Shown here: positions 438 to 20,667 of the stretch, piece after piece
Position numbering within the stretch: position 1 is the first letter of the stretch
How the letters are laid out: every line of letters starts with the position of its first letter
From: Herbidospora sakaeratensis
Lineage (GTDB): Bacteria > Actinomycetota > Actinomycetes > Streptosporangiales > Streptosporangiaceae
NCBI RefSeq assembly: GCF_001570525.1
Contig: NZ_BBXC01000008.1
Span: 461,841-525,840, forward strand
DNA length: 64,000 nt
Direction: 5' to 3'
Made by a program: the position numbers and the translations under genes
The notes under the pieces: generated by a model
What the model saw: the letters and a program-made list of their open reading frames with translations, nothing else
Databases searched by the model: none
Told to the model about the DNA's origin: nothing

Positions 438-1879
438 CGCTTCAGGAAGGGCGCCAGCCAGTCGGGGGTGACCTCGGCGGCGAAGGCGGCCCCCTGGGTC
501 TCTCCGGCGTCGATCGCCTTGTAGCCGCCGCTGCCCGCGCCGACCCCGGCGATCACGGTCACCAGACCGGCGCGGCGCTGGAACCACGACTGCTCGATGG
601 TCCAGCCGACGACCGCGCGGCGTTCGACGACCGCCTGGGCCCGGCGCAGCGAACCGGAGCGCACCGACAACCGGGTGCCGTCGTAGGTGTGGCCCAGCGA
701 CCGGTATCGGTCGAGGCCGAGGGCGATTCCGGCCACGGCCAGGACGGTGGCGGCGACGCCGATGAGGGCGTAGCCCAGGGCGTACATGACCAGGGCCAGG
801 ACCACCCACGGCGCGATCGCCCGGAACAGGCGGCGGCGGCGCGCGGCGGGCGGGTGGGGGCGCAGCGCCTCGCTGAACGGGCCGACGGCCTCGGCGGCGA
901 TGTCGTCGACGGCGGCGCGGGGGGCCACGGGGAGCAGCTGGCCCCGGGTCTGGGAGTCGCCGAGGCCGGTCACCACCGCCCACAGGCGGGCCACCCGGGC
1001 GCGGCGCTCCAGCGGGCTTTCGGCGATCTCGTAGCCGCGGATGCGGCGGCGTTCGAGGGAGACCACGCGCCGGTTGACCAGGCCGCGTTCGGCCACCAGG
1101 TGGTCGCCCCGGCCGAACAGCACGAAGTTCCAGTTGAAGACGGCGTACATGGCCGCGGCCAGGAACGGCATCAGCACGACCAGCACGATCGCGGCGCCGA
1201 CGAGGAGCAGCGGGTGGCCCCAGAGCCACTCGCCGACGGCCACCGCGTCGTCTTCGTCGAGGCCGAGCTCGCCGCCCCACTGGAAGGCCAGGCCGACGGC
1301 GCCGGCGACCAGCGCGAACGGGGTGAACAGGTAGGCGCCGGACAGCGGGCCGTAGCGCAACCAGGCCCGGGGCACCGTGAGGAACACGTGGTCCCGCGGT
1401 GCGGTGGGCTGCTCGGGAGTGACCACGGCATGGTGGCGGGACAACAACACGGCGCGCAGCCGCTCGGCGTCCTCGACGGTGATGCCGTCGAGCTCGCCCT
1501 CCTGCTTGTCGCCCCCGGCGCCGGTGTCGAGCTTGAGCACGGCCAGGCCGAGCAGCCGGTGGAGGAAGGGCGTGGTGACGTCGACGCCGCGGATGCGCTC
1601 CAGCGGGATGACGCGGGTCGAGCGGCCGATGAAGGCGCGGGACAGTTCGAGCCGGCCGCCGGTGATGGTGTAGGAGAAGGTGGCCCAGCGCACGACGGCG
1701 TACAAGACCGAACCGGCGACGCCGAGCGCGGCCCAGATGAAGGAACGCGGCGAGAACCCCCCGGCGATCAGCACGCCCGCCAGCGGGACGAGCAGCGACG
1801 GCAGCACCCTGATCGGGTCGATGAGCAGCAGCCTGGGGCTGAGCCGGGCGGCCTCCGGCACCGGCTCGTGGACGGGCAT
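434..1879 (-). CDS. PH domain-containing membrane protein (YdbT-like)
   Basis: The 481-residue product has several hydrophobic pairs (near residues 20-55, 180-250 and 360-410) alternating with soluble segments of the bacterial PH (bPH2) type. One such segment contains ITGGRLELSRAFIGRSTRVIPLERIRGVDV, which fits the usual pattern of an R-x-I-P-L-x-x-I-x-x-V strand. Proteins of this YdbT class carry three PH-like repeats and sit in the membrane; their biochemical role is unknown. The ATG at 1879 lies 2 bases beyond the stop of the smaller upstream PH gene, so the two are surely one operon. The frame stays open upstream to 2272, but that part is antisense-like sequence overlapping the upstream gene. 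Confidence 0.8.
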   Translation of the reverse strand: MPVHEPVPEAARLSPRLLLIDPIRVLPSLLVPLAGVLIAGGFSPRSFIWAALGVAGSVLYAVVRWATFSYTITGGRLELSRAFIGRSTRVIPLERIRGVDVTTPFLHRLLGLAVLKLDTGAGGDKQEGELDGITVEDAERLRAVLLSRHHAVVTPEQPTAPRDHVFLTVPRAWLRYGPLSGAYLFTPFALVAGAVGLAFQWGGELGLDEDDAVAVGEWLWGHPLLLVGAAIVLVVLMPFLAAAMYAVFNWNFVLFGRGDHLVAERGLVNRRVVSLERRRIRGYEIAESPLERRARVARLWAVVTGLGDSQTRGQLLPVAPRAAVDDIAAEAVGPFSEALRPHPPAARRRRLFRAIAPWVVLALVMYALGYALIGVAATVLAVAGIALGLDRYRSLGHTYDGTRLSVRSGSLRRAQAVVERRAVVGWTIEQSWFQRRAGLVTVIAGVGAGSGGYKAIDAGETQGAAFAAEVTPDWLAPFLKR

Positions 1880-1881
1880 GC

Positions 1882-2391
1882 TCACGTCGCGTCGTCCCTG
1901 AGTTCCTGGGCCCGGCGCGACAGCTCCTCGGCCAGCCGCGCGGCCACCTCGTAGTCGAGGCCCTTGATCGTGGACGACCCCGCGTAGGAGGCGGTGCGGA
2001 TCTCGACGGTCGCCAGCCCGAAGAAGCGCTCCAGCCAGCCCTGCGCCTTGTCGACGGTCTGGATGCGGGACACCGGCACGAACACCCACTTGCGCGACAA
2101 CCAGCCGGAGCGCGCGTAGACGACGTCGGCGGCCAGCTCCCAGCGGTGCACCGCGAACCGGACGACCGGCTCGGCGAGCACGAACGGGATCAGCAGCAGC
2201 CCGATGACCAGCGCGGCCACCCAGGTGCGGTCGAGCAGCCACTGGGGCAGGAACTCCCACCCCGTCATCCACATGGAGAGCAGCACCAGCCCGCCTGCCA
2301 GCAGCACCGTCACGATGACGGCCTCCGCGAACCAGAGCGACCTGGCCCTCGGCGAGACCTGGTTGGCGGGGTCACGCAGCGCGTCACGCAT
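1882..2391 (-). CDS. PH domain-containing membrane protein (YdbS-like)
   Basis: The 169-residue product has two membrane segments (about residues 25-45 and 55-80) followed by one bPH2 domain with the typical strand FVPVSRIQTVDKAQGWLERFFG and the ending AGSSTIKGLDYEVAARLAEEL. YdbS and YdbT proteins are usually encoded together, small partner first, as here. Function is not established for the family; a membrane-stress or envelope role is often suggested. The gene begins the two-gene operon; ATG at 2391 is the only good start. About 240 bp upstream separate it from a divergent lipoprotein gene, and I see no convincing gene in that gap. Confidence 0.8.
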   Translation of the reverse strand: MRDALRDPANQVSPRARSLWFAEAVIVTVLLAGGLVLLSMWMTGWEFLPQWLLDRTWVAALVIGLLLIPFVLAEPVVRFAVHRWELAADVVYARSGWLSRKWVFVPVSRIQTVDKAQGWLERFFGLATVEIRTASYAGSSTIKGLDYEVAARLAEELSRRAQELRDDAT

Positions 2392-2629
2392 CTGGCATCA
2401 CGATCCCACCCTAAATCGTCGGGATGTGCCGTTGGTCACCCCCCAACCCGCGCTTGAAGATTTCTACCGGCGAGTACCACTTCCCCACCAGAATCATAGG
2501 AATCCCAGGTCACATGGGTCCGTCCGGGGTGGACCATGGAACGAACCCGGCGAATATGGAGATTCTTCTCGCTGTGGATCATCGCGATCGGGTCGGCGCA
2601 CCTGCGGGATCCGCGTAGCATCATCGGGC

Positions 2630-3187
2630 ATGGGGTCGCTGACGAAGTCCGTTCGCACGCGCCGAGCCGCTCTCATTCCGGCGGCCGTCGCGGCGCTGAC
2701 GGCATCGGCCTCGGGCTGCGGGATCGTGGGCGGAGGATCGCCCGCCGACCTCGACGTGATCAGTGTGTCGAGCCCGCAGTTCCGTGACGGCGACCCGCTG
2801 CCGTCGGGCTACTCGTGCAATGGAGACCTGGGCAATCCGCCCCTCCGGTGGTCGGGTACGTCGGGCGCCAAGTCGGTGGCCCTCGTGGTCGACGACAACG
2901 CCGCGGGAGACAAGGCGATGGTGCACTGGGTGGTGTTCAACATCGAGCCCGACACCACCGAACTCGCGGAGAACGGCATCCCCCGGGGTGCACGGCAGGG
3001 GCAGACGACTAGTGGAAAAGTCGGATATGTGCCCCCCTGCCAGCCCAATGACAGCTACCGTTTCACCGTCTACGCCCTGAACGAGAAACTGGACCTCCCG
3101 CAGGGTGCCCCCCTCTCGGAGAGTCTGGCCACGATCGCGTCGCACACGATCGCCCGAGGTCGCCTCACTGCGGCTGACATCGAGTGA
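2630..3187 (+). CDS. PEBP / YbhB-YbcL family lipoprotein
   Basis: The 185-residue product starts with a basic n-region (KSVRTRR), a hydrophobic stretch and a loose lipobox ASGC near residue 29, so it is probably a lipid-anchored exported protein. The rest matches the phosphatidylethanolamine-binding/Raf-kinase-inhibitor-like fold: FRDGDPLPSGYSCNGD, then VALVVDDNAAG, then MVHWVVFNI, then GYVPPCQPNDSYRFTVYAL near the end. Bacterial members bind small anions or lipids and their substrates are mostly unknown. The longer open frame back to 2204 has no matching family sequence, and ATG 2630 gives a proper signal peptide, hence this start. Confidence 0.85.
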   Translation: MGSLTKSVRTRRAALIPAAVAALTASASGCGIVGGGSPADLDVISVSSPQFRDGDPLPSGYSCNGDLGNPPLRWSGTSGAKSVALVVDDNAAGDKAMVHWVVFNIEPDTTELAENGIPRGARQGQTTSGKVGYVPPCQPNDSYRFTVYALNEKLDLPQGAPLSESLATIASHTIARGRLTAADIE

Positions 3188-3372
3188 CATGCTGATGACC
3201 GGAGGTAGTAGTGGTGGACCAATCTTCGCCTAGGGTGTGACAACGGTCATTGTGGTCGAGCAGAATCGGATCCTGAATTGCTGAGCGCAGGTGATCACAG
3301 GGGGCAGGTCGCGTCGATGGCCGCGCGATCTCACCGGCGCCGCTGGAAGGCCATGGCCTTGAGGGTGGTGCT

Positions 3373-4878
3373 ATGACCGCGGTCATTTTGGGCCTTGTCG
3401 CCGTTGTGCTGTTGGTGCTGATAGTCGTGGCACTCGGCATGCGGTCGATGAACCGGAGAGAGAGCGCGCTCTCCTCCGAGCGCATCAAGGCGATGGCCGA
3501 GGGCGCCGCGAAGAAGAAGGGCAGCCGGCCCGCCGAAGAGACCTTTTTCGAGAGCTTCCCCGAGGGCTTCGACGCCTTCGAGGAACCGAAGAAGGCTCCG
3601 CCGAAACCGGCGAAGGCCCCCGGTGCGCCGCCCCGTCCGGGCAGCCGCCAGGGCGCCAAGCAGCCCGCCGGCGCCGGCGCTCCCCGCGGCAAACGCGGGG
3701 TCGACGAGTGGGGCGCCGACGACGACTACGACGACGACTACTGGTCGCGCGTGCGCGCCGACGACGGGGCGTTCGGCGGCACCATCAAGCAGCGCATGGC
3801 CACCCCCCGCCCGGTCGAGGCCGAGCCCGCCGCGGCCGGCCCCGCCCCCATCGCGTCGGTCACCCCCATCAGCGCCGTCGACCCCAACGCCGCGACCGTC
3901 CAGGGCGTCCTCCCTCAGCGCCCGGCCGCGCAGCCGCCCGTCCAGCCCGCCCCGACCCCCGGCGTCGTGACCCCGATCGCCGCCGCGCTCACCCCCGGGG
4001 TGGTCACCCCGATCGCCGGTCTGTCGACCGGCCCGCTGAACACCGGAACCCCGTCCAACGGGTTCCTGTCCCCCGACACCGGCATGGTCGACGGCCTGCG
4101 TGCCACCCCCTCCTCGCAGCTGGCCGAGCAGAAGACCGTCACCTTCTCCGCGCCGACCCCCGACCTGAGCAGCCCGGCGACCGGGCCGTTCGTCCCGCCC
4201 GGCGCCTCGACCGGCCCGTTCTCCTCGGGCCCGTCGACCGGCATGTTCGAACGGCCGGCCAGCTACGACCAGCCCCCGACCGGACCGTTCCCCAGCCGTC
4301 CGGCCTACGACGGCGGCTACGACACCGGCTACACCAGCGGCAACTTCCCCGTGCCCGCCGCGCCGCAGCCCGAACCGATCCCGCCGGCCTACCCCGAACC
4401 GGCCGGCTGGCCCGCCCCGCCCGCCGGTGGCACCTACCAGCCGCCGGCCGCCGCGCCCTCGTGGGGCAGCACCAGCGGCGACGTGTTCGACGACCCCGAG
4501 CCGCCCCGTCAGGGCAGCGGATCGACCTGGTCGACCGGTGAGGCGGCGGGCTACCAGATGCCCGCGGCGCAGCCGTCCTACAACGACTTCTCGACCGGCG
4601 CCTACCAGACCGGCAACCTGCCGACCCCGGCGCCCGGCTCCTACGAGGTCAGCGCCGGCTGGGCGACGATCGACGACTCCGACTCGGTGGCCGGATCCTA
4701 CGGCTACGACCAGCAGGGCTACCCCGGGGCCGTCCCGCCCGCCCCGCCGCAGAACAACGGCGGCAGCTGGCCCTCCTACGACGAGCTCTACGGCGAGCAG
4801 ACCACCCGCAGCGGCGGCGGCCGCCGGGGCACCCATCGGAACGGCCCCGAGACCGACCAACCCGACTATTACCGCTGA
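3373..4878 (+). CDS. Proline-rich single-pass membrane protein, unknown function
   Basis: The 501-residue product has one N-terminal membrane helix (residues 2-22) followed by MRSMNRRESALSSERIKAMAEG, which looks like a short cytoplasmic juxtamembrane helix. An acidic patch (DEWGADDDYDDDYWSR) follows at about 113-128. The remaining ~350 residues are low-complexity Pro/Gly/Ser/Thr/Tyr sequence with degenerate units such as TPGVVTPIA (twice in tandem), STGPL, ATGPF, STGPF, STGMF and PTGPF. I do not recognise a named family. Its layout (inside-out anchor plus long disordered tail) is like scaffold or cell-surface-assembly proteins of actinomycetes, but that is only an analogy. ATG 3373 is preceded by a weak purine run, GAGGGTGG. 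Confidence 0.75.
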   Translation: MTAVILGLVAVVLLVLIVVALGMRSMNRRESALSSERIKAMAEGAAKKKGSRPAEETFFESFPEGFDAFEEPKKAPPKPAKAPGAPPRPGSRQGAKQPAGAGAPRGKRGVDEWGADDDYDDDYWSRVRADDGAFGGTIKQRMATPRPVEAEPAAAGPAPIASVTPISAVDPNAATVQGVLPQRPAAQPPVQPAPTPGVVTPIAAALTPGVVTPIAGLSTGPLNTGTPSNGFLSPDTGMVDGLRATPSSQLAEQKTVTFSAPTPDLSSPATGPFVPPGASTGPFSSGPSTGMFERPASYDQPPTGPFPSRPAYDGGYDTGYTSGNFPVPAAPQPEPIPPAYPEPAGWPAPPAGGTYQPPAAAPSWGSTSGDVFDDPEPPRQGSGSTWSTGEAAGYQMPAAQPSYNDFSTGAYQTGNLPTPAPGSYEVSAGWATIDDSDSVAGSYGYDQQGYPGAVPPAPPQNNGGSWPSYDELYGEQTTRSGGGRRGTHRNGPETDQPDYYR

Positions 4879-4929
4879 TTTCGGCGTTCCAAGTAGGACC
4901 CTCGGCTGACCTTGGCATAAGGTCGCCGC

Positions 4930-7107
4930 ATGACCGGGGGTAACAGTTCGACCACGCAGCGTGCCATCTCCGTGCTGCGGCATGACGTACCGGCCTCACT
5001 CGTGGTGTTCCTGGTGGCGGTTCCGCTGTCACTGGGCATCGCGGTGGCGTCCGGGGCGCCGATCGCGGCCGGGCTGGTCGCGGCGATCGTCGGCGGCATC
5101 GTGGCGGGCGCGCTGGGCGGCTCCGTCGTCCAGGTGAGCGGTCCGGCGGCCGGGTTGTCGCTGGTGGTGGCCGATCTCGTGCAGGTCTACGGCTGGCGGG
5201 CCACCTGCGCCATCACCCTCGCGGCGGGGCTGCTGCAGATCGTGCTCGGCGCGTTCCGGGTGGCCAGGGCCGCCCTGGGGGTCTCCCCCGCCGTCATCCA
5301 CGGCATGCTGGCCGGGGTCGGCGTCGTGATCGCGTTGTCGCAGCTCCACATCGTGCTGGGCGGCAGCCCGCAGCGGTCGGCGCTCGACAACCTGCTGGAG
5401 GTGCCGGCCCAGGTGGCCACCCTCCACGGCGACGCGGTGATGATCGGGCTGCTGACGATCGGCGTGCTGCTGATCTGGGACCGCATCCCCAAGGTCCGGC
5501 TGGTGCCCGCCCCGCTGGCGGCGCTCACCATCGCGACGGTGACGGCGGCGCTGGCGGGCTGGAAGTTCACCGAGGTCGACCTGGCCAACGGGCTGAGCCA
5601 GCTCGCCGGGCCGATCCTGCCCACCGGCGACTGGCACGCCATCGCGGCCTCGATCCTGCTGGTGGCCGTGCTGGCCGGCGTCGAGTCGCTGCTGACCTGC
5701 GTCGCGGCCGACCGCATGCACGACGGGCCGCGCGCCGACCTCGACCGGGAGTTGTGCGCGCAGGGCGTCGCCAACGTGGTGTCGGGCGGTCTGGGCGGCC
5801 TGCCGGTGTCGGGCGTGGTGGTCCGGACGACCACGAACGTCCGGGCGGGCGCGCGGTCGCGCTGGTCGACGGTGCTCCACGGGGTGTGGGTGCTGATCGC
5901 CACGATCGCGTTCGCGTCGGCGCTCGGGCTGATCCCGATGGAGGCGCTGGCGGCGCTGCTGCTGTTCATCGGCGTGAAGATGGTCAACCTGGGCACCGCG
6001 CGGGGGCTGCGCGGCCACGGCGAGATGCCGATCTACTTCCTGACCATGGGCGCGGTCGTGCTGGTGGGGCTGGCCGAGGGCATCGTCATCGGGCTGGGCC
6101 TGGCCGCGCTGCTGGCGCTGCGGCGGCTGACCTGGGTGTCGGTCGAGGTCACCGAGGGCGGCGGGCGCTGGCGGGTGGTGGTGACCGGGTCGCTGATCTT
6201 CATCGGGGTGCCCCGGCTGACCGACTCGCTGCGCACGATCCCGCGCGGCGCCGAGGTCGACCTGCTGCTCAACGTCGACTTCATGGACAACGCGGCGTTC
6301 GAGGCGCTGCACAACTGGCGGCTGGAGCACGAACGGGGTGGCGGCACCGTCGACATCGACGAACTCCACGACGACTGGTACACCGCCGCCGCCAGCGGGA
6401 CCCGGGTCTTCCCGGCCAAGACGCCGCCCAAGCTCGACTGGTCGTGGTTGCCGTGGGCCTACCGGCGGCCCCCGGCGGCCGTGCCCGGCGACCTGCTGGA
6501 GGGCACCCGCGAATACCAGCGCCGGACCGCGCCGCTGATCCGGCCGCTGCTGACCCGCATGGCCCGCAAGCAGTCGCCGTCGCACCTGTTCATCACCTGC
6601 GCCGACTCGCGGGTGATGCCCTCGCTGATCACCGCGAGCGGGCCGGGCGACCTGTTCATGGTCCGCAACGTCGGCAACCTGGTGCCGCGCTTCGAGTCGG
6701 TGCCGGCCGACGACTCGGTGGCGGCGGCGATCGAGTACGCCGTCGGCGTCCTCGGCGTCAGCACGATCACGGTGTGCGGACACTCGGGGTGCGGCGCGAT
6801 GGCGGCGCTGCTCGGTGACGCGCCCACGGGCCTGACGGCGGTCGGCAACTGGCTGCGCCACGGGCACCACTCGGTCGAGCGGTTCGAGAACACCCCCCAC
6901 GGGCCCGAGCAGGCGCCGCTCGACCACCTGTGCCGGGTCAACGTGATCCAGCAGCTCGAGAACCTGCGCAGCAATCCGATGGTCGACCGGCTGGAACGTT
7001 CCGGGAAGCTGGAGCTGTCGGGGCTCTACTTCGACATCGCGACCGCCCGGGTGCACGTGCTGAACGAGGAGGGCTTCACGCCCGTGCCGGAGCTTCGCAC
7101 AGGGTGA
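4930..7107 (+). CDS. SulP anion transporter fused to beta-carbonic anhydrase
   Basis: The 725-residue protein begins with a SulP/SLC26-type membrane domain of about 400 residues (VFLVAVPLSLGIAVASGAPIAAGL, then VSGPAAGLSLVVADLV). A STAS-like segment follows around residues 410-500 (VEVTEGGGRWRVVVTGSLIFIG, LLNVDFMDNAAFEALHNW). The last ~200 residues are a beta-class carbonic anhydrase. Visible zinc ligands and the catalytic Asp/Arg dyad are Cys557-Ala-Asp559-Ser-Arg, His618 and Cys621 (GHSGCGAM). The likely job is bicarbonate or another anion moving across the membrane with CO2/HCO3- conversion on its inner face; direction and ion are not provable here. ATG 4930 gives the full first helix. It is a single-gene unit. 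Confidence 0.93.
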   Translation: MTGGNSSTTQRAISVLRHDVPASLVVFLVAVPLSLGIAVASGAPIAAGLVAAIVGGIVAGALGGSVVQVSGPAAGLSLVVADLVQVYGWRATCAITLAAGLLQIVLGAFRVARAALGVSPAVIHGMLAGVGVVIALSQLHIVLGGSPQRSALDNLLEVPAQVATLHGDAVMIGLLTIGVLLIWDRIPKVRLVPAPLAALTIATVTAALAGWKFTEVDLANGLSQLAGPILPTGDWHAIAASILLVAVLAGVESLLTCVAADRMHDGPRADLDRELCAQGVANVVSGGLGGLPVSGVVVRTTTNVRAGARSRWSTVLHGVWVLIATIAFASALGLIPMEALAALLLFIGVKMVNLGTARGLRGHGEMPIYFLTMGAVVLVGLAEGIVIGLGLAALLALRRLTWVSVEVTEGGGRWRVVVTGSLIFIGVPRLTDSLRTIPRGAEVDLLLNVDFMDNAAFEALHNWRLEHERGGGTVDIDELHDDWYTAAASGTRVFPAKTPPKLDWSWLPWAYRRPPAAVPGDLLEGTREYQRRTAPLIRPLLTRMARKQSPSHLFITCADSRVMPSLITASGPGDLFMVRNVGNLVPRFESVPADDSVAAAIEYAVGVLGVSTITVCGHSGCGAMAALLGDAPTGLTAVGNWLRHGHHSVERFENTPHGPEQAPLDHLCRVNVIQQLENLRSNPMVDRLERSGKLELSGLYFDIATARVHVLNEEGFTPVPELRTG

Positions 7108-7165
7108 AATCGGCTCCCGGTGAAACGGGGCAGACCACCCGACACCGGGCACCCAGGATGGGGCC

Positions 7166-8167
7166 ATGAGAATTCTGGTGATCGGCGGCTCGGTGTTCCT
7201 CGGCCGGGCCGTCGTCGAGGAGGCCCTCGCCCGGGGCCACGACGTGACCATGTTCAACCGGGGGGTGAGCCGCGCCGACCGTCCCGACGTCGAGTCGGTG
7301 CACGGCGACCGCGGCGTGCACGACGACCTGCTGCGCCTGGTCGAGGGCCGCGCGTGGGACGCCGTCGTCGACGTGTGCGGCTACACCCCGGCGACGGTGC
7401 TCGACGGGGTGCGGGTGCTGAACGGGCACGCCGCCCACTACACGTTCGTCTCCAGCATCAGCGCCTACCGGGGCTTCCCCGGCGAGATCGGCGTCAACGA
7501 GGAGTCGGAGCAGTTCCCGGGCGACCCCGAGGCGACCGAGGGCGAGTACGGCCCGCTCAAGTCGGGCTGCGAGCTGGCCGTCAGCGAGAACTTCGAGGGC
7601 GGCGTGCTCATCGTCCAGCCGGGCCTGATCCTCGGCCCCCACGAGAACGTCGGCCGGCTGCCGTGGTGGCTGACCCGGATCGAGCGCGGCGGCCGGGTGG
7701 TCGCGCCCGGCAACCCCGACCGGGAGATGCAGCTCATCGACGCCCGCGACATCGCGGCGTTCACGATCGCGCAGGTCGAGAAGGGCACGACCGGCACGTT
7801 CCTGACCGGCGGGGTCCCGGCCAACACCACCTACGGCCAGTGGTTGCGCGAGTGCGTCGAGGTCACCGGGTCGGACGCCGAACTGGTCTGGGTCGACGAC
7901 GCGGTGCTGCACGAGCACGGGGCGCAGATGTGGACGGAGTTCCCGCTGTGGGCCGACGACAGCATGCCCGGCGTGTGGCTGAGCGACTCGTCGAAGGCGC
8001 ACGCGGCCGGGCTGACGTGCCGCCCGGTGAGCGAGACCGTGCGCGACACCTGGGAGTGGCTGCGGCACGTCCCGGTGGAGGAGCGGGTGTTCGGGGCGCG
8101 GTTCAGCCACGGGATCGATCCGGACAAGGAGGCCGCGATCCTCGCCGACTGGGACAACCGGGGCTGA
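7166..8167 (+). CDS. NAD-dependent epimerase/dehydratase family protein
   Basis: The 333-residue product is an extended short-chain dehydrogenase fold. It opens with the Rossmann motif MRILVIGGSVFLGRAVVEEAL (pattern GGxxFLGR) and a basic NRG after the second strand. Later features are VSSISAY in the catalytic region and VIVQPGLILGPHENVGRLPWWL in the substrate-side segment. The usual YxxxK appears as YGPLKSGCE around residue 130. Relatives include plant CSP41-like and isoflavone-reductase-like proteins, and substrate cannot be told. The start ATG is 58 bp after the SulP gene, with no clear co-regulated partner, so it may be monocistronic. Confidence 0.85.
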   Translation: MRILVIGGSVFLGRAVVEEALARGHDVTMFNRGVSRADRPDVESVHGDRGVHDDLLRLVEGRAWDAVVDVCGYTPATVLDGVRVLNGHAAHYTFVSSISAYRGFPGEIGVNEESEQFPGDPEATEGEYGPLKSGCELAVSENFEGGVLIVQPGLILGPHENVGRLPWWLTRIERGGRVVAPGNPDREMQLIDARDIAAFTIAQVEKGTTGTFLTGGVPANTTYGQWLRECVEVTGSDAELVWVDDAVLHEHGAQMWTEFPLWADDSMPGVWLSDSSKAHAAGLTCRPVSETVRDTWEWLRHVPVEERVFGARFSHGIDPDKEAAILADWDNRG

Positions 8168-17584: not shown

Positions 17585-17951
17585 CGGACACCCGTCATCG
17601 TCGCCGGGGACGACCTGGGCGACCGCATCTCGGCCGCCCTGGGAGGCGAGCGGTCGCGGCTGGCGTTCGACGGCACCGCCGACCCCGCGCATACGGCGGC
17701 GCTATTGCGAGCTCTGGAGGACGGCGGCACCGTCGTCACCTTCGCGGCCGTCACCGGTCAGGTGCCCGCCGTCCCGCTGGGCGACCTGATCTACCGCGGC
17801 ATCGTCCGGCGTGCCTTCTTCATCCTCAATCGAGCGGGTGTACGCCGAACTGGCCGGACTGGTCGAGCAGGGGGTGCTGAGGGCGCCGGTCGAGGCGACG
17901 TACCCGCTGGAGGATCACCCGGCGGCCCTCGGTGCCAGAGCGCCCGTTTGA
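17585..17951 (+). pseudogene. Remnant of zinc-type/quinone oxidoreductase (MDR family)
   Basis: One frame reads DDLGDRISAALGG, then ALEDGGTVVTFAAVTGQVPAVPLGDLIYRGIVRRAFFILN. It then shifts near 17828 into another frame reading IERVYAELAGLVEQGVLRAPVEATYPLEDHPAALG and stops at 17949-17951. These two pieces look like the C-terminal half of a medium-chain dehydrogenase/reductase (the segment after the Rossmann fold, ending in the usual P-V-E-x-x-Y-P-L motif). The N-terminal catalytic half is missing and about ten residues at the frameshift appear deleted, so the gene is dead unless reads are wrong. Confidence 0.6.
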
Positions 17952-18034
17952 GCATGGGGCTACTCATTTCCGCTGCCGGCGACGGTGTTAAACCGGATCT
18001 ACGCGAGGCACCCCATCACGCGAGAGAGGTCTTG

Positions 18035-18349
18035 ATGAGCCAACCGATCAATCCGGCACGGCGACAGGAACTGCTGGAGAAACTGAGATCCATCGATCCG
18101 CGAAATCTCGACGCCCTTCGATTCCGTGTGATCACCGTGGCCGAGTCGTTCAGGGATTCCTTCACCGACTCGTTCTACGACTCCTTCTCGGACTCGTTCT
18201 CCGACCAATTCGGCGACGGCTTCACCGACGGCGCCCCCGACAGGCTCAGATTCCTCCCGGCGGAGAGGATGCTCAAGCAGATCACCACCCTGGGCCCCGA
18301 GCAACAACTGGTGTCGGTCGAATTCACGATCGCCAGGGATCAGGCCTGA
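18035..18349 (+). CDS. Probable RiPP precursor with seven Phe-X-Asp repeats
   Basis: The 104-residue peptide has a helical, charged leader-like part (residues 1-38). Seven F-X-D units with exact four-residue period follow: Phe39, 43, 47, 51, 55, 59 and 63 (FRD, FTD, FYD, FSD, FSD, FGD, FTD), separated by Ser, Gln or Gly. A C-terminal segment of about 38 residues comes after. Three-residue-cyclophane (triceptide) substrates carry aromatic-X-X motifs cross-linked by radical SAM/SPASM enzymes. One such enzyme starts 11 bases downstream. ATG 18035 has AGAGGT seven bases upstream. The long tail after the repeat is unusual for a precursor. The role is inferred; the peptide could instead be a structural repeat protein. 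Confidence 0.75.
   Translation: MSQPINPARRQELLEKLRSIDPRNLDALRFRVITVAESFRDSFTDSFYDSFSDSFSDQFGDGFTDGAPDRLRFLPAERMLKQITTLGPEQQLVSVEFTIARDQA
18149..18232 (+). repeat. Seven-unit F-X-D-S coding repeat in precursor gene
   Basis: Twelve-base units, each encoding Phe-X-Asp plus Ser/Gln/Gly, run without interruption across residues 39-66 of the precursor. Codons vary between units (TTC with GAC or GAT, several Ser codons), so the repeat is old or selected at protein level rather than a fresh slippage product. Confidence 0.8.
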
Positions 18350-18360
18350 CGGACGCGCAG

Positions 18361-19482
18361 ATGCTTCGCCAAGTGATCATGCAGCCGACCTCGTCGTGCA
18401 ATCTGAACTGCACCTACTGCTACGTCCCGAACCGGCGGGACCGGACCCTCATGAGCCCGGAGGTGCTCGACCACGCCATCCGGAAAACGCTGCGCAGCGA
18501 CCTCGTTCGGGGCCGCGTCGAATTCCTCTGGCACGCCGGCGAGCCGCTGATGGCGGGCCGACAGTTCTACGTGGACGCGATGCGGTCGGTCGCCACGCAC
18601 AATCATCGCGGCATCGAGGTGCGCCAATCCCTCCAGACCAACGGAACCCTGGTGACGAGGGACTGGTGCGCCTTCCTGCAGGAGCACGGTTTCTCGGTCG
18701 GCCTCAGCGTCGACGGTCCCGCGGCGATCCACGACCGGAGCAGGCGCAACTGGAGCGGCGGCCGGTCCCACGAGAAGGTCATGCGCGGCTACGAACTGCT
18801 CACCGGCCACGGCATTCCGCTGGGCGCGATCTGCGTGCTCACGCGCGAGAGCCTGCGGCACCCCGACGAGATATTCGCCTTCTTCCTCGGCAACGGGTTC
18901 ACCAGCGTCGGCTTCAACGTGGAGGAGGTCGAGAACGGCAACACCAGCTCGTCGCTGACGGAAAGAGGCGGCGAGGTGGCCGGGGAATACCGCAGGTTCA
19001 TGGACCGGATCTACGACCTGTGGCGGGCCGAGGCCGGGCGACTGTCGGTTCGCGAGTTCGGCGACCTCTCGTGGATCATCCGGCACAAGTTCTCCGACCC
19101 CGGATATCAACGCCGCCCACTGGAGACCCAGCCGCTCGGGATCATCACCATCCAGAAGGACGGCACCATCTCGACGTTCAGCCCGGAGTTCGCCGGGGCC
19201 AAAAGCCCGGAATACGGCGACTTCAGCATCGGCAACATCCTGGACGTCGACGAACTCGACGACGTCCAGGACGATGCGAATCTCCGGCGGATCGTGCAGG
19301 CGGTGGACGCCGGAATCCAGGCGTGCGCGGACGAATGCCTGTTCTTCGACCTCTGCGGCGGGGCGTACACGTCGAACAAGTTCTTCGAGAACGGTTCCCT
19401 GACGAGCACCGAGACGACCGCGTGCCGCCTGCACCGGCAGGAACTGTCCGCGGTGCTCATCGAGAAGTTGTCCCGGAGGTAG
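18361..19482 (+). CDS. Radical SAM/SPASM peptide-maturase-like enzyme
   Basis: The 373-residue protein carries the radical SAM cluster motif C13-NLN-C17-TY-C20 (CX3CX2C), then FLWHAGEPLMAG (SAM-binding GGEP-like) and LQTNGTLV. The C-terminal Cys-rich SPASM-type part is CADECLFFDLCGGAYTSNKFFENG followed by STETTACRLHR. From memory, the GG-x-SNK-F-ENG-x-x-STET-C ending resembles cyclophane-forming maturases of the GrrM/OscB kind. It should cleave SAM to a 5'-deoxyadenosyl radical and cross-link or otherwise modify a peptide. The gene lies 11 bp after the F-X-D repeat peptide, its obvious candidate substrate. No exporter or protease gene is adjacent. Confidence 0.88.
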   Translation: MLRQVIMQPTSSCNLNCTYCYVPNRRDRTLMSPEVLDHAIRKTLRSDLVRGRVEFLWHAGEPLMAGRQFYVDAMRSVATHNHRGIEVRQSLQTNGTLVTRDWCAFLQEHGFSVGLSVDGPAAIHDRSRRNWSGGRSHEKVMRGYELLTGHGIPLGAICVLTRESLRHPDEIFAFFLGNGFTSVGFNVEEVENGNTSSSLTERGGEVAGEYRRFMDRIYDLWRAEAGRLSVREFGDLSWIIRHKFSDPGYQRRPLETQPLGIITIQKDGTISTFSPEFAGAKSPEYGDFSIGNILDVDELDDVQDDANLRRIVQAVDAGIQACADECLFFDLCGGAYTSNKFFENGSLTSTETTACRLHRQELSAVLIEKLSRR

Positions 19483-19485
19483 TGG

Positions 19486-19570
19486 ACCGGCCGGGGGCTC
19501 TCCGGGTGGCGCCCCCGGCCGGTTGTCTGCCGGAACCGGCCGGGGTGTGCGCCGGGAATCCCCGGCCGGT
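19486..19570 (+). terminator. Two tandem GC-rich hairpins after the radical SAM gene
   Basis: The first hairpin has 13-bp arms ACCGGCCGGGGGC / GCCCCCGGCCGGT (19486-19498 and 19511-19523). The second has 11-bp arms (19535-19545 and 19560-19570) of nearly the same sequence, and both are followed by a T(T/C)GTCTG copy. Neither has a U-tract, which is normal for high-GC actinobacterial terminators. They sit between convergent genes, so they may serve both directions. Confidence 0.65.
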
Positions 19571-19591
19571 CGTCTGTGGGGTGGCAGGTGC

Positions 19592-19861
19592 TCAGGTGTG
19601 CCGGGGAGACGTCGCCGCCTCCACCAACTCCGCCTGCCTCATCAGGTGGCGGAGCTCGTCCAGCACGGTCGACTCGACGATCAGCGGCTTGGACACGGGC
19701 CAGGCGGCCATGGCGAAGAACCGCCGGCTTCCGGTCCCGTAGGAGATCACCCACGCCGGCTCGACCTGGTCGAGATGGGCGGCAGCGCGGCGTTTGTCGG
19801 CGTCCCAGTCGCGGCGTGCCACTTCGCCGTCGTGGGGCCTCGTCTTCGTTCGGCGAGCCAT
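19592..19861 (-). CDS. Small hypothetical protein
   Basis: The 89-residue product starts MARRTKTRPHDGEVARRDWDADKR and contains EPAWVISYGTGSRRFFAMAAW followed by a helical end (VLDELRHLMRQAELVEAA). I recognise no family with a function; short proteins like this are common in actinomycetes. ATG 19861 has a near-perfect SD, AGGAGGTG, eight bases upstream, which makes it a real gene despite its size. It faces the radical SAM gene tail to tail. Confidence 0.65.
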   Translation of the reverse strand: MARRTKTRPHDGEVARRDWDADKRRAAAHLDQVEPAWVISYGTGSRRFFAMAAWPVSKPLIVESTVLDELRHLMRQAELVEAATSPRHT

Positions 19862-20267
19862 GTTCAGCACCTCCTGCGTCTATGACACTGCGGAGGGCCG
19901 GGGCGGGGACAGTGCGAGTCGGGGACACTGCGGGATGGAGGCGAACTCTCACCACATATAAGACGGAACGGGGGTCTCAGGGTGCTGGGTGACGTTCCTG
20001 GCTCCGCGCCATGGAACAGCCTCCGAAATCACCACCGGAAGGCCGGTCGTCAGCACAACGGGTGTGCACAGAGGCTGTGATGTCACATCGACCAGGTGAG
20101 CCGACGTCGTGTGCGGCAAGGGAGGCGTCACCGACCGGCTACATGAGAGCTGAGGGGCGATCTCAGGTGCGACGGTGATGGCGAGGCCGGCTGCCATCGC
20201 GCACAGAGAGCGGGAAACGTCCCACCCCAAGAGGGAGCGCACGCCCGTACAGATCAGAGAGTCGTAA
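19862..20267. other. Gap of about 400 bp before rnpB with no convincing gene
   Basis: Only weak open frames occur here (for example 19949-20242 on the minus strand), with no SD, no family resemblance and poor third-position GC. The region has lower GC than its surroundings. It probably holds the promoter of the small gene ending at 19592 and downstream sequence of rnpB. Confidence 0.5.
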
Positions 20268-20667
20268 GGCGGACGAGTCGGCCTATAGGCCGGGTTCTGT
20301 GGTCATCGCTGACCGACGGCCATCCATCTAGGGCCACGATTGCTCGTGGTCTCAAGCGGTCTACCCGCGCACCATCGGACGGGCAGTCCTCAAGCGGCGC
20401 GCGCGGGAACCCGGAGGTTCCCTTCTTGACCTTGCTCCGGGTGGGGTTTACCGAGCCGCCCCCGTCACCGGGAGCGCTGGTGGTCTCTTACACCACCGTT
20501 TCACCCTTACCTCCCCCGTGAGGGAGAGGCGGTCTGTTCTCTGTGGCACTGTCCCGCGGGTCACCCCGGGTCGGCGTTACCGACCACCCTGCCCTGTGGA
20601 GCCCGGACCTTCCTCGGCGGAACCCCGTGAAGGGTCCCGACGCGGCCGTCCGGCCGGCTCGTCCGCC
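20268..20667 (-). ncRNA. rnpB: RNase P RNA (class A)
   Basis: Read on the minus strand, the roughly 400-nt RNA starts GGCGGACGAGCCGGCCGG and ends GGCCGACTCGTCCGCC. The ends pair as helix P1. The universally conserved 5' core GAGGAAGGTCCGGGCTCC lies near 20598-20615, and the 3' core ACAGAACCCGGCCTATAGGCC lies near 20282-20302. The internal AAGGGTGAAACGGTG and GGTAAACCCCA elements are also present. It is the catalytic RNA that matures tRNA 5' ends. A TAGGGT hexamer at 20677-20682, nine bases before the predicted 5' end, is a good -10 candidate. Confidence 0.97.

Follow-up and report, generated by a model that had tools for sequence, protein, structure and literature searches.

Introduction

The closest described chemistry to the locus reported here is that of OscB, which is reported to join C7 of Trp to the β-carbon of Asn or Asp and C4 of Phe to the β-carbon of Asn, and that of YxdB, which joins C3 of Tyr to the β-carbon of Asp (PMC11002830). 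The closest described gene families are GrrA/OscA1 with GrrM/OscB (TIGR04260/TIGR04261) and AmcA with AmcB (NF041721/NF041718). Here we describe a two-gene locus in a 64,000-nucleotide stretch of the high-GC genome of Herbidospora sakaeratensis (the whole stretch analysed, hereafter the window). As in the GrrA/OscA1 systems, its enzyme lies above the TIGR04261 cut-off and a tandem Aro-X-[N/D] core adjoins it, but its precursor has no match to TIGR04260 (E ≤ 0.1), its leader is of another type (LLxxLRxIDP), and all seven of its units carry Asp, in contrast to the Asn of the GrrA-type peptides counted. AmcA peptides likewise contain several Aro-X-[N/D] units, but the enzyme of the window is under the AmcB cut-off and on a separate tree branch, and its peptide has no AmcA match; AmcA-type peptides, unlike that of the window, have FDN/WDN units and lie mostly downstream of the enzyme gene. 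With YxdB, to judge from its reported chemistry, the locus shares Asp as the aliphatic partner, with Tyr in YxdB instead of Phe (PMC11002830). By sequence, the locus would belong with the triceptides, in that an Aro-X-(N/D/...) precursor adjoins a gene whose radical SAM family forms cyclophanes. We propose, with a probability of roughly three in four, that it is a minimal two-gene triceptide-type RiPP unit that bonds each Phe to the β-carbon of the Asp two residues on, in up to seven places. It appears to represent an uncommon, Asp-type branch within an established class of peptide natural products.

Results

The precursor gene and its array

The features of the unit are listed in Table 1. The F-X-D units (FRD, FTD, FYD, FSD, FSD, FGD and FTD) start at residues 39, 43, 47, 51, 55, 59 and 63, and an 11 nt gap separates the precursor gene from the maturase gene; the first-pass annotation, which had described a 104-residue peptide with seven such units from Phe39 to Phe63 at a step of four, 11 bp ahead of the enzyme, was correct in coordinates, length and frame. 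The array is far beyond chance: when the residues of the peptide were shuffled 100,000 times, no periodic Aro-X-[DN] run exceeded four (a length reached in two shuffles), compared with the seven observed. Furthermore, it is the sole stop-free run of at least four periodic [FWY]-X-[DN] units (periods 4 to 12) in all six frames of the whole window. Phe is encoded by TTC in all seven units and Asp by GAC in six and GAT in one, and the codons of X and of the fourth position vary, so the array is not a perfect DNA repeat. The same annotation had read the array as F-X-D-S tetrads, which holds strictly for four of the seven units and fails for the last three, where the fourth positions are Q, G and G.

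Table 1. Features of the unit and its surroundings (positions in the window)
Feature	Position	Strand	Remarks
Stretch with the unit	17930..20268	.	No match between flanks in same-genus G004
Shine-Dalgarno-like GAGAGAGG	18022..18029	+	5 nt upstream of precursor ATG; read directly
Precursor peptide gene	18035..18349	+	104 aa + stop
Leader, residues 1-38, with ELLEKLRSIDPRNLDAL	18035..18148	+	Based on shuffle-tested similarity to relatives' leaders
Core, residues 39-65	18149..18229	+	Seven F-X-D units, step 4
Tail, 39 residues, 3' of core	18230..18346	+	Absent from related precursors (alignment)
Radical SAM maturase, GrrM/OscB family	18361..19482	+	373 aa; TIGR04261 369.7 bits, cut-off 310
CX3CX2C for radical SAM [4Fe-4S] cluster, residues 13-20 (C13, C17, C20)	18397..18420	+	13/13 alignment rows, window included
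C322, C326, C332, C355, probable ligands of a single auxiliary Fe-S cluster	19324..19425	+	12/13 alignment rows, window included; the 13th is an enzyme cut by a contig end
GC-rich hairpin directly 3' of maturase stop, possible terminator	19485..19524	+	14-pair outer stem, -35.3 kcal/mol; no T-run; not among the terminator scan's results

The precursor gene is single copy in the H. sakaeratensis genome, and a promoter scan gave no sigma-70-type site. At E ≤ 0.1 the peptide had no match in NCBIfam or Pfam, and tblastn on plasmids gave no match. A search of the peptide against 100 genomes, its own included, returned three weak non-self matches (E 4e-4 to 8e-3), which all lie inside long open frames and were judged to be chance. 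PHROG 22301 matched residues 48-82 (E 5e-4), possibly through composition, and was likewise set aside.

The maturase

The enzyme had been read as a CX3CX2C radical SAM protein with a GrrM/OscB-like Cys-rich C-terminus, an assignment borne out by its TIGR04261 score and by the four C-terminal cysteines (Table 1). Among the best 25 of its 64 NCBIfam matches, it falls under the cut-off of the other 24 models; it scores 298.9 bits against AmcB (NF041718; cut-off 425), the second-best family, and 179 bits against the anaerobic sulfatase maturase model TIGR03942 (cut-off 349.45). Among 394 sampled genomes of the class, the TIGR04261 cut-off is passed by the enzyme of the window alone. The N-terminal and C-terminal cysteines align with those of its relatives, and the catalytic set is complete. 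Residues 270-276, which we take to be the region that holds further cluster cysteines in sulfatase maturases (anSME numbering), contain a cysteine in none of the 13 rows and read SPE in 11 of them, and a single auxiliary Fe-S cluster is therefore likely. The AlphaFold model (mean pLDDT 93.8) has as its nearest solved folds anSMEcpe, a sulfatase maturase, and ChlB, a leader-bound radical SAM protein for which our literature search found no paper by title, and the best sequence matches among solved structures are anaerobic sulfatase maturases.

Related loci carry similar leaders and the motif

Enzyme matches at E ≤ 1e-50 occur in 34 of 341 same-family genomes (own included), of which only G056 is clearly close, at about 55-56% identity to the window, with the next at 40%. 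The top genome-contig matches, Geodermatophilus DSM 43162 and Dyella tabacisoli, are each about 41-42% identical and come from a search with exact short query patterns and the best 80 matches, in which relatives may be missing. The leader pattern LLxxLRxIDPxxL recurs in peptides upstream of the enzymes of all three, together with Aro-X-Asp or Aro-X-Asn units. G056 has a 52-aa peptide with the leader VTELLEKLKGIDPEDLTEL and the core FSNHTFRDSF, which holds one FSN and one FRD, and Dyella an 87-aa peptide with one FSD and five FTD units at a spacing of nine. The first Geodermatophilus peptide, of 67 aa, lies about 0.46 kb upstream of the enzyme and ends in EWSDSFSDWFW (WSD and FSD); between it and the enzyme sits a second peptide with a similar leader and no Aro-X-[DN] unit. 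These loci thus resemble the window in leader and in Aro-X-Asp units, but they differ in period and copy number and have no long tail, and in G056 one unit is Asn-type and a CTQ-oxidase pair lies ahead of the locus.

Leader similarity to the window was equalled in none of 5000 shuffles for G056, in 12 for the first Geodermatophilus peptide, in 37 for Dyella and in 92 for the second Geodermatophilus peptide; the weak pairs among the relatives are the two Geodermatophilus leaders (271 of 5000) and, weakest, Dyella against the second Geodermatophilus leader (390 of 5000). Geodermatophilus has a second enzyme copy (52%), which is cut by the contig end and for which no leader-bearing peptide was found upstream. 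The reading of the window as a triceptide-like RiPP locus, made from the sequence before any search, gains support from two of three checks made on it. The predicted pairing of peptide and radical SAM gene is found in four of the five enzymes of the closest group, each preceded on its own strand by such a peptide (immediately adjacent in the window, G056 and Dyella), and the enzyme both exceeds the GrrM/OscB cut-off and shares a branch with the other FxD systems. The third, conservation of the repeat, gave a mixed answer: the motif recurs in all three relatives, with six FxD units in Dyella, but one Geodermatophilus peptide is without units, and the arrangement of seven copies at period 4 was found in no other genome searched.

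No further Asp-type locus was found in 147 genomes around Dyella and 146 around Geodermatophilus (E ≤ 1e-70), or in 396 genomes of the phylum of the window and 398 of that of Dyella (E ≤ 1e-75), samples that overlap in part; of the five weaker enzyme matches in one of these searches, the peptide scan covered L137 and L139-L141. The roughly 40% identical same-family enzymes L096-L099 showed no FxD precursor in the ORF lists of three or in scans of all four. Viral contigs hold five enzyme relatives, the best at 37% identity, and a coding-strand scan showed no adjoining peptide with three Aro-X-[ND] units at the two best.

Several of these loci have neighbours of their own. In G056 (L124, G056:C50:1-8000, 1154-7964, minus strand), peptide and enzyme lie directly behind lodA/goxA-like CTQ oxidase and goxB/lodB-like genes on one strand; the oxidase, of 1383 aa, has a C-terminal haem-oxygenase-like domain and is under the curated LodA and GoxA cut-offs, and LodA_N has no match in the genome of the window. 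About 0.9 kb behind the Geodermatophilus maturase is a subtilase-family (S8) gene (L005, 8015-9520), a possible leader protease. In L096 (G457, 550-2589) a GrrM-like enzyme is fused, in one 679-aa frame, to an upstream protein that by eye resembles a 2-oxoglutarate/Fe oxygenase, and in L098 (G629, 632-2607) the GrrM-like enzyme gene overlaps an upstream gene that by eye is also of 2-oxoglutarate/Fe oxygenase type.

Asn and Asp peptides in the wider family

A coding-strand scan covered 61 enzyme places, of which 23 lie on the minus strand and among which one place and one near-identical pair are counted twice. It found adjoining peptides with at least three Aro-X-[ND] units at 20 places, and 18 of these peptides are Asn-type: 12 are FDN/WDN peptides like AmcA and six are of other kinds. 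The two exceptions are Dyella, which is Asp-only, and L132/L009, which is mixed with an Asp majority; the scan of the 61 places gave no further Asp-type peptide. It is limited to peptides of 30-170 aa that have three or more units, which leaves the window (with a longer mechanical frame), G056 and Geodermatophilus outside the list. AmcA-type peptides are also present at L089, L091, L104, L106, L110 and L121, which are unlabelled in the enzyme tree. TIGR04260 (GrrA/OscA1) was matched by two Verrucomicrobiota peptides and AmcA by L012, and the peptides of the window, G056, Geodermatophilus and Dyella, as well as those of L007, L008 and G1379, have no NCBIfam match. Since family members carry up to nine units (six WxN in L008, nine WxN in L010, eight FxN in G1379), seven tandem units are no record, and the difference lies in the Asp-only array and the leader. 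The G1379 peptide (L165, 1192-1476), from the search of 398 genomes of the phylum of Dyella, has 94 aa, with its eight Phe-X-Asn units in uninterrupted succession, and is encoded immediately ahead of a GrrM/OscB enzyme (381.2 bits). Alphaproteobacterial GrrM-like enzymes (L019, L020, L021 and L023, on one branch with L018) have upstream small ORFs of 41-79 aa that end in WGPAMRR or WGPAMRV.

The enzyme tree

The tree comprises 61 enzyme rows, taken from 118 distinct ones as the best 62 less one, and does not include G1379. The five FxD-labelled enzymes, of which four have peptides and the second Geodermatophilus copy is labelled by kinship, lie on one side of a 99/97 branch, as they do in 100% of 200 bootstrap trees. 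None of 500 label shuffles gave a grouping as low, in a count that leaves out unlabelled rows, and in the drawn tree no unlabelled row stands among the five. With sulfatase-maturase-like rows as the outside, the FxD group is a basal grade and not a clade, with one weak inner fork (83/9) and the Dyella enzyme on a long branch. Because the FxD enzymes form such a grade, the use of Asp may be ancestral rather than derived.

Discussion

We infer the cross-link chemistry, and with it which and how many rings form, as follows. The leader (LLEKLRSIDPRNLDAL) would be taken up by the GrrM/OscB-family enzyme, which with SAM and its Fe-S clusters would abstract a hydrogen from the β-carbon of Asp; this carbon would then bond to the ring of the Phe two residues earlier, giving a three-residue cyclophane with the loss of two hydrogens, and a bond from Phe C4 to Asp Cβ would be its natural reading. 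Repetition along the array would yield up to seven Phe-Asp rings with one linker residue after each, presumably a stiff acidic rod of about 27 residues, at a mass cost of 14.11 Da for seven rings. Removal of leader and tail, export and a biological role are likewise presumed. Judging from the reported OscB and YxdB reactions, a Phe-X-Asp linkage would need no new reaction type (PMC11002830). The reaction type is thus known and the Asp-only precursor family looks new; the novelty of the motif is provisional, as a literature search on F-X-D, with partial coverage of the triceptide literature, found no paper, which is weak evidence of absence.

This proposal is favoured by the enzyme score, the pairing with peptides that have related leaders, the relatives with Asn arrays, the array statistics, the complete cysteines and the maturase-like fold. 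Against it weigh the uniqueness of the array to the window, the mix of FSN and FRD in G056, the unit-less Geodermatophilus peptide, the weak leader pairs and the window-only tail, as well as the absence of a protease or exporter among the four ORFs scanned, the basal grade with its weak fork, the long Dyella branch and the fifth enzyme labelled by kinship. In its boldest form, which we put forward tentatively, a separate Asp-type GrrM/OscB branch would processively ring every F-X-D, so that seven Phe-Asp cyclophanes follow one another and each fourth residue bears a carboxylate; the product would be a rigid and strongly acidic rod unlike the Asn-type triceptides and possibly metal-binding.

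The same system could also cross-link only some of the seven units, such as those at the N-terminal end or those of F-X-D-S type, to give one to a few rings, an outcome compatible with our proposal that we consider possible at somewhat less than even odds. In its favour, the G056 and first Geodermatophilus precursors each have just two Aro-X-[DN] units, and the F-X-D-S tetrad breaks down in the final three units of the window, but the even spacing of six F-X-D units in Dyella, together with relatives that have six to nine Aro-X-Asn units, suggests that many sites can be modified. We regard a different radical modification as unlikely, whether Asp would be oxidised, decarboxylated or cross-linked through another of its positions, neighbouring units joined to each other, or an ether bond formed. 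Other chemistry is indeed known from related radical SAM enzymes, such as the darobactin ether link that DarE is reported to make (PMC9055067), and Asp is used here where 18 of 20 scanned peptides have Asn, but the maturase is over the GrrM/OscB cut-off, and Trp-X-Asp and Tyr-X-Asp cyclophanes have been reported (PMC11002830). That the peptide is no RiPP precursor at all, with a structural or fortuitous array beside an orphan enzyme or one whose substrate is another protein, for instance a sulfatase, is very improbable, since the sequence match to solved sulfatase maturases and the unusual tail that would favour it are set against a sulfatase-maturase score far under its cut-off (179 against 349) and the leader and motif beside the enzyme in three other genomes.

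If the rings of the proposed two-gene unit form, an Asp-type branch with its own leader would join a class in which Asn prevails among the multi-unit peptides scanned, and the unit would offer a compact multi-ring substrate for studying the order in which a single radical SAM enzyme works through numerous sites, as well as an acidic rod that is genetically encoded. Related precursors carry two, six or seven units, a natural series with which processivity and the choice between Asp and Asn can be tested directly.

Genomic context and possible origin

In the same-genus genome G004, the syntenic flanks enclose 318 bp in place of window 17930-20268. Positions 17592-17929 are the remnant of a gene that by eye is dehydrogenase-like, and at the same place G004 has it intact (335 aa). 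Both flanks lie on one contig in G001, G003 and G005, 2.6 to 20 kb apart, and on different contigs in G002 and G006; at E ≤ 1e-50 the enzyme has no match in any of the six other genomes of the genus. The G+C fraction at third codon positions is 0.81 for the peptide gene and 0.91 for the enzyme gene, compared with 0.93-0.95 for three nearby genes. The lower G+C and the lack of the unit in the same-genus genomes point to a gain by transfer, with loss elsewhere as the alternative. No protease or exporter was recognised among the four neighbouring window ORFs scanned. The maturase is followed on the minus strand by a 92-aa ORF (19595-19870), which has no Pfam family and resembles, at 43% over 44 aa, an ORF of 92 aa that immediately precedes the AmcB-type gene of L086.
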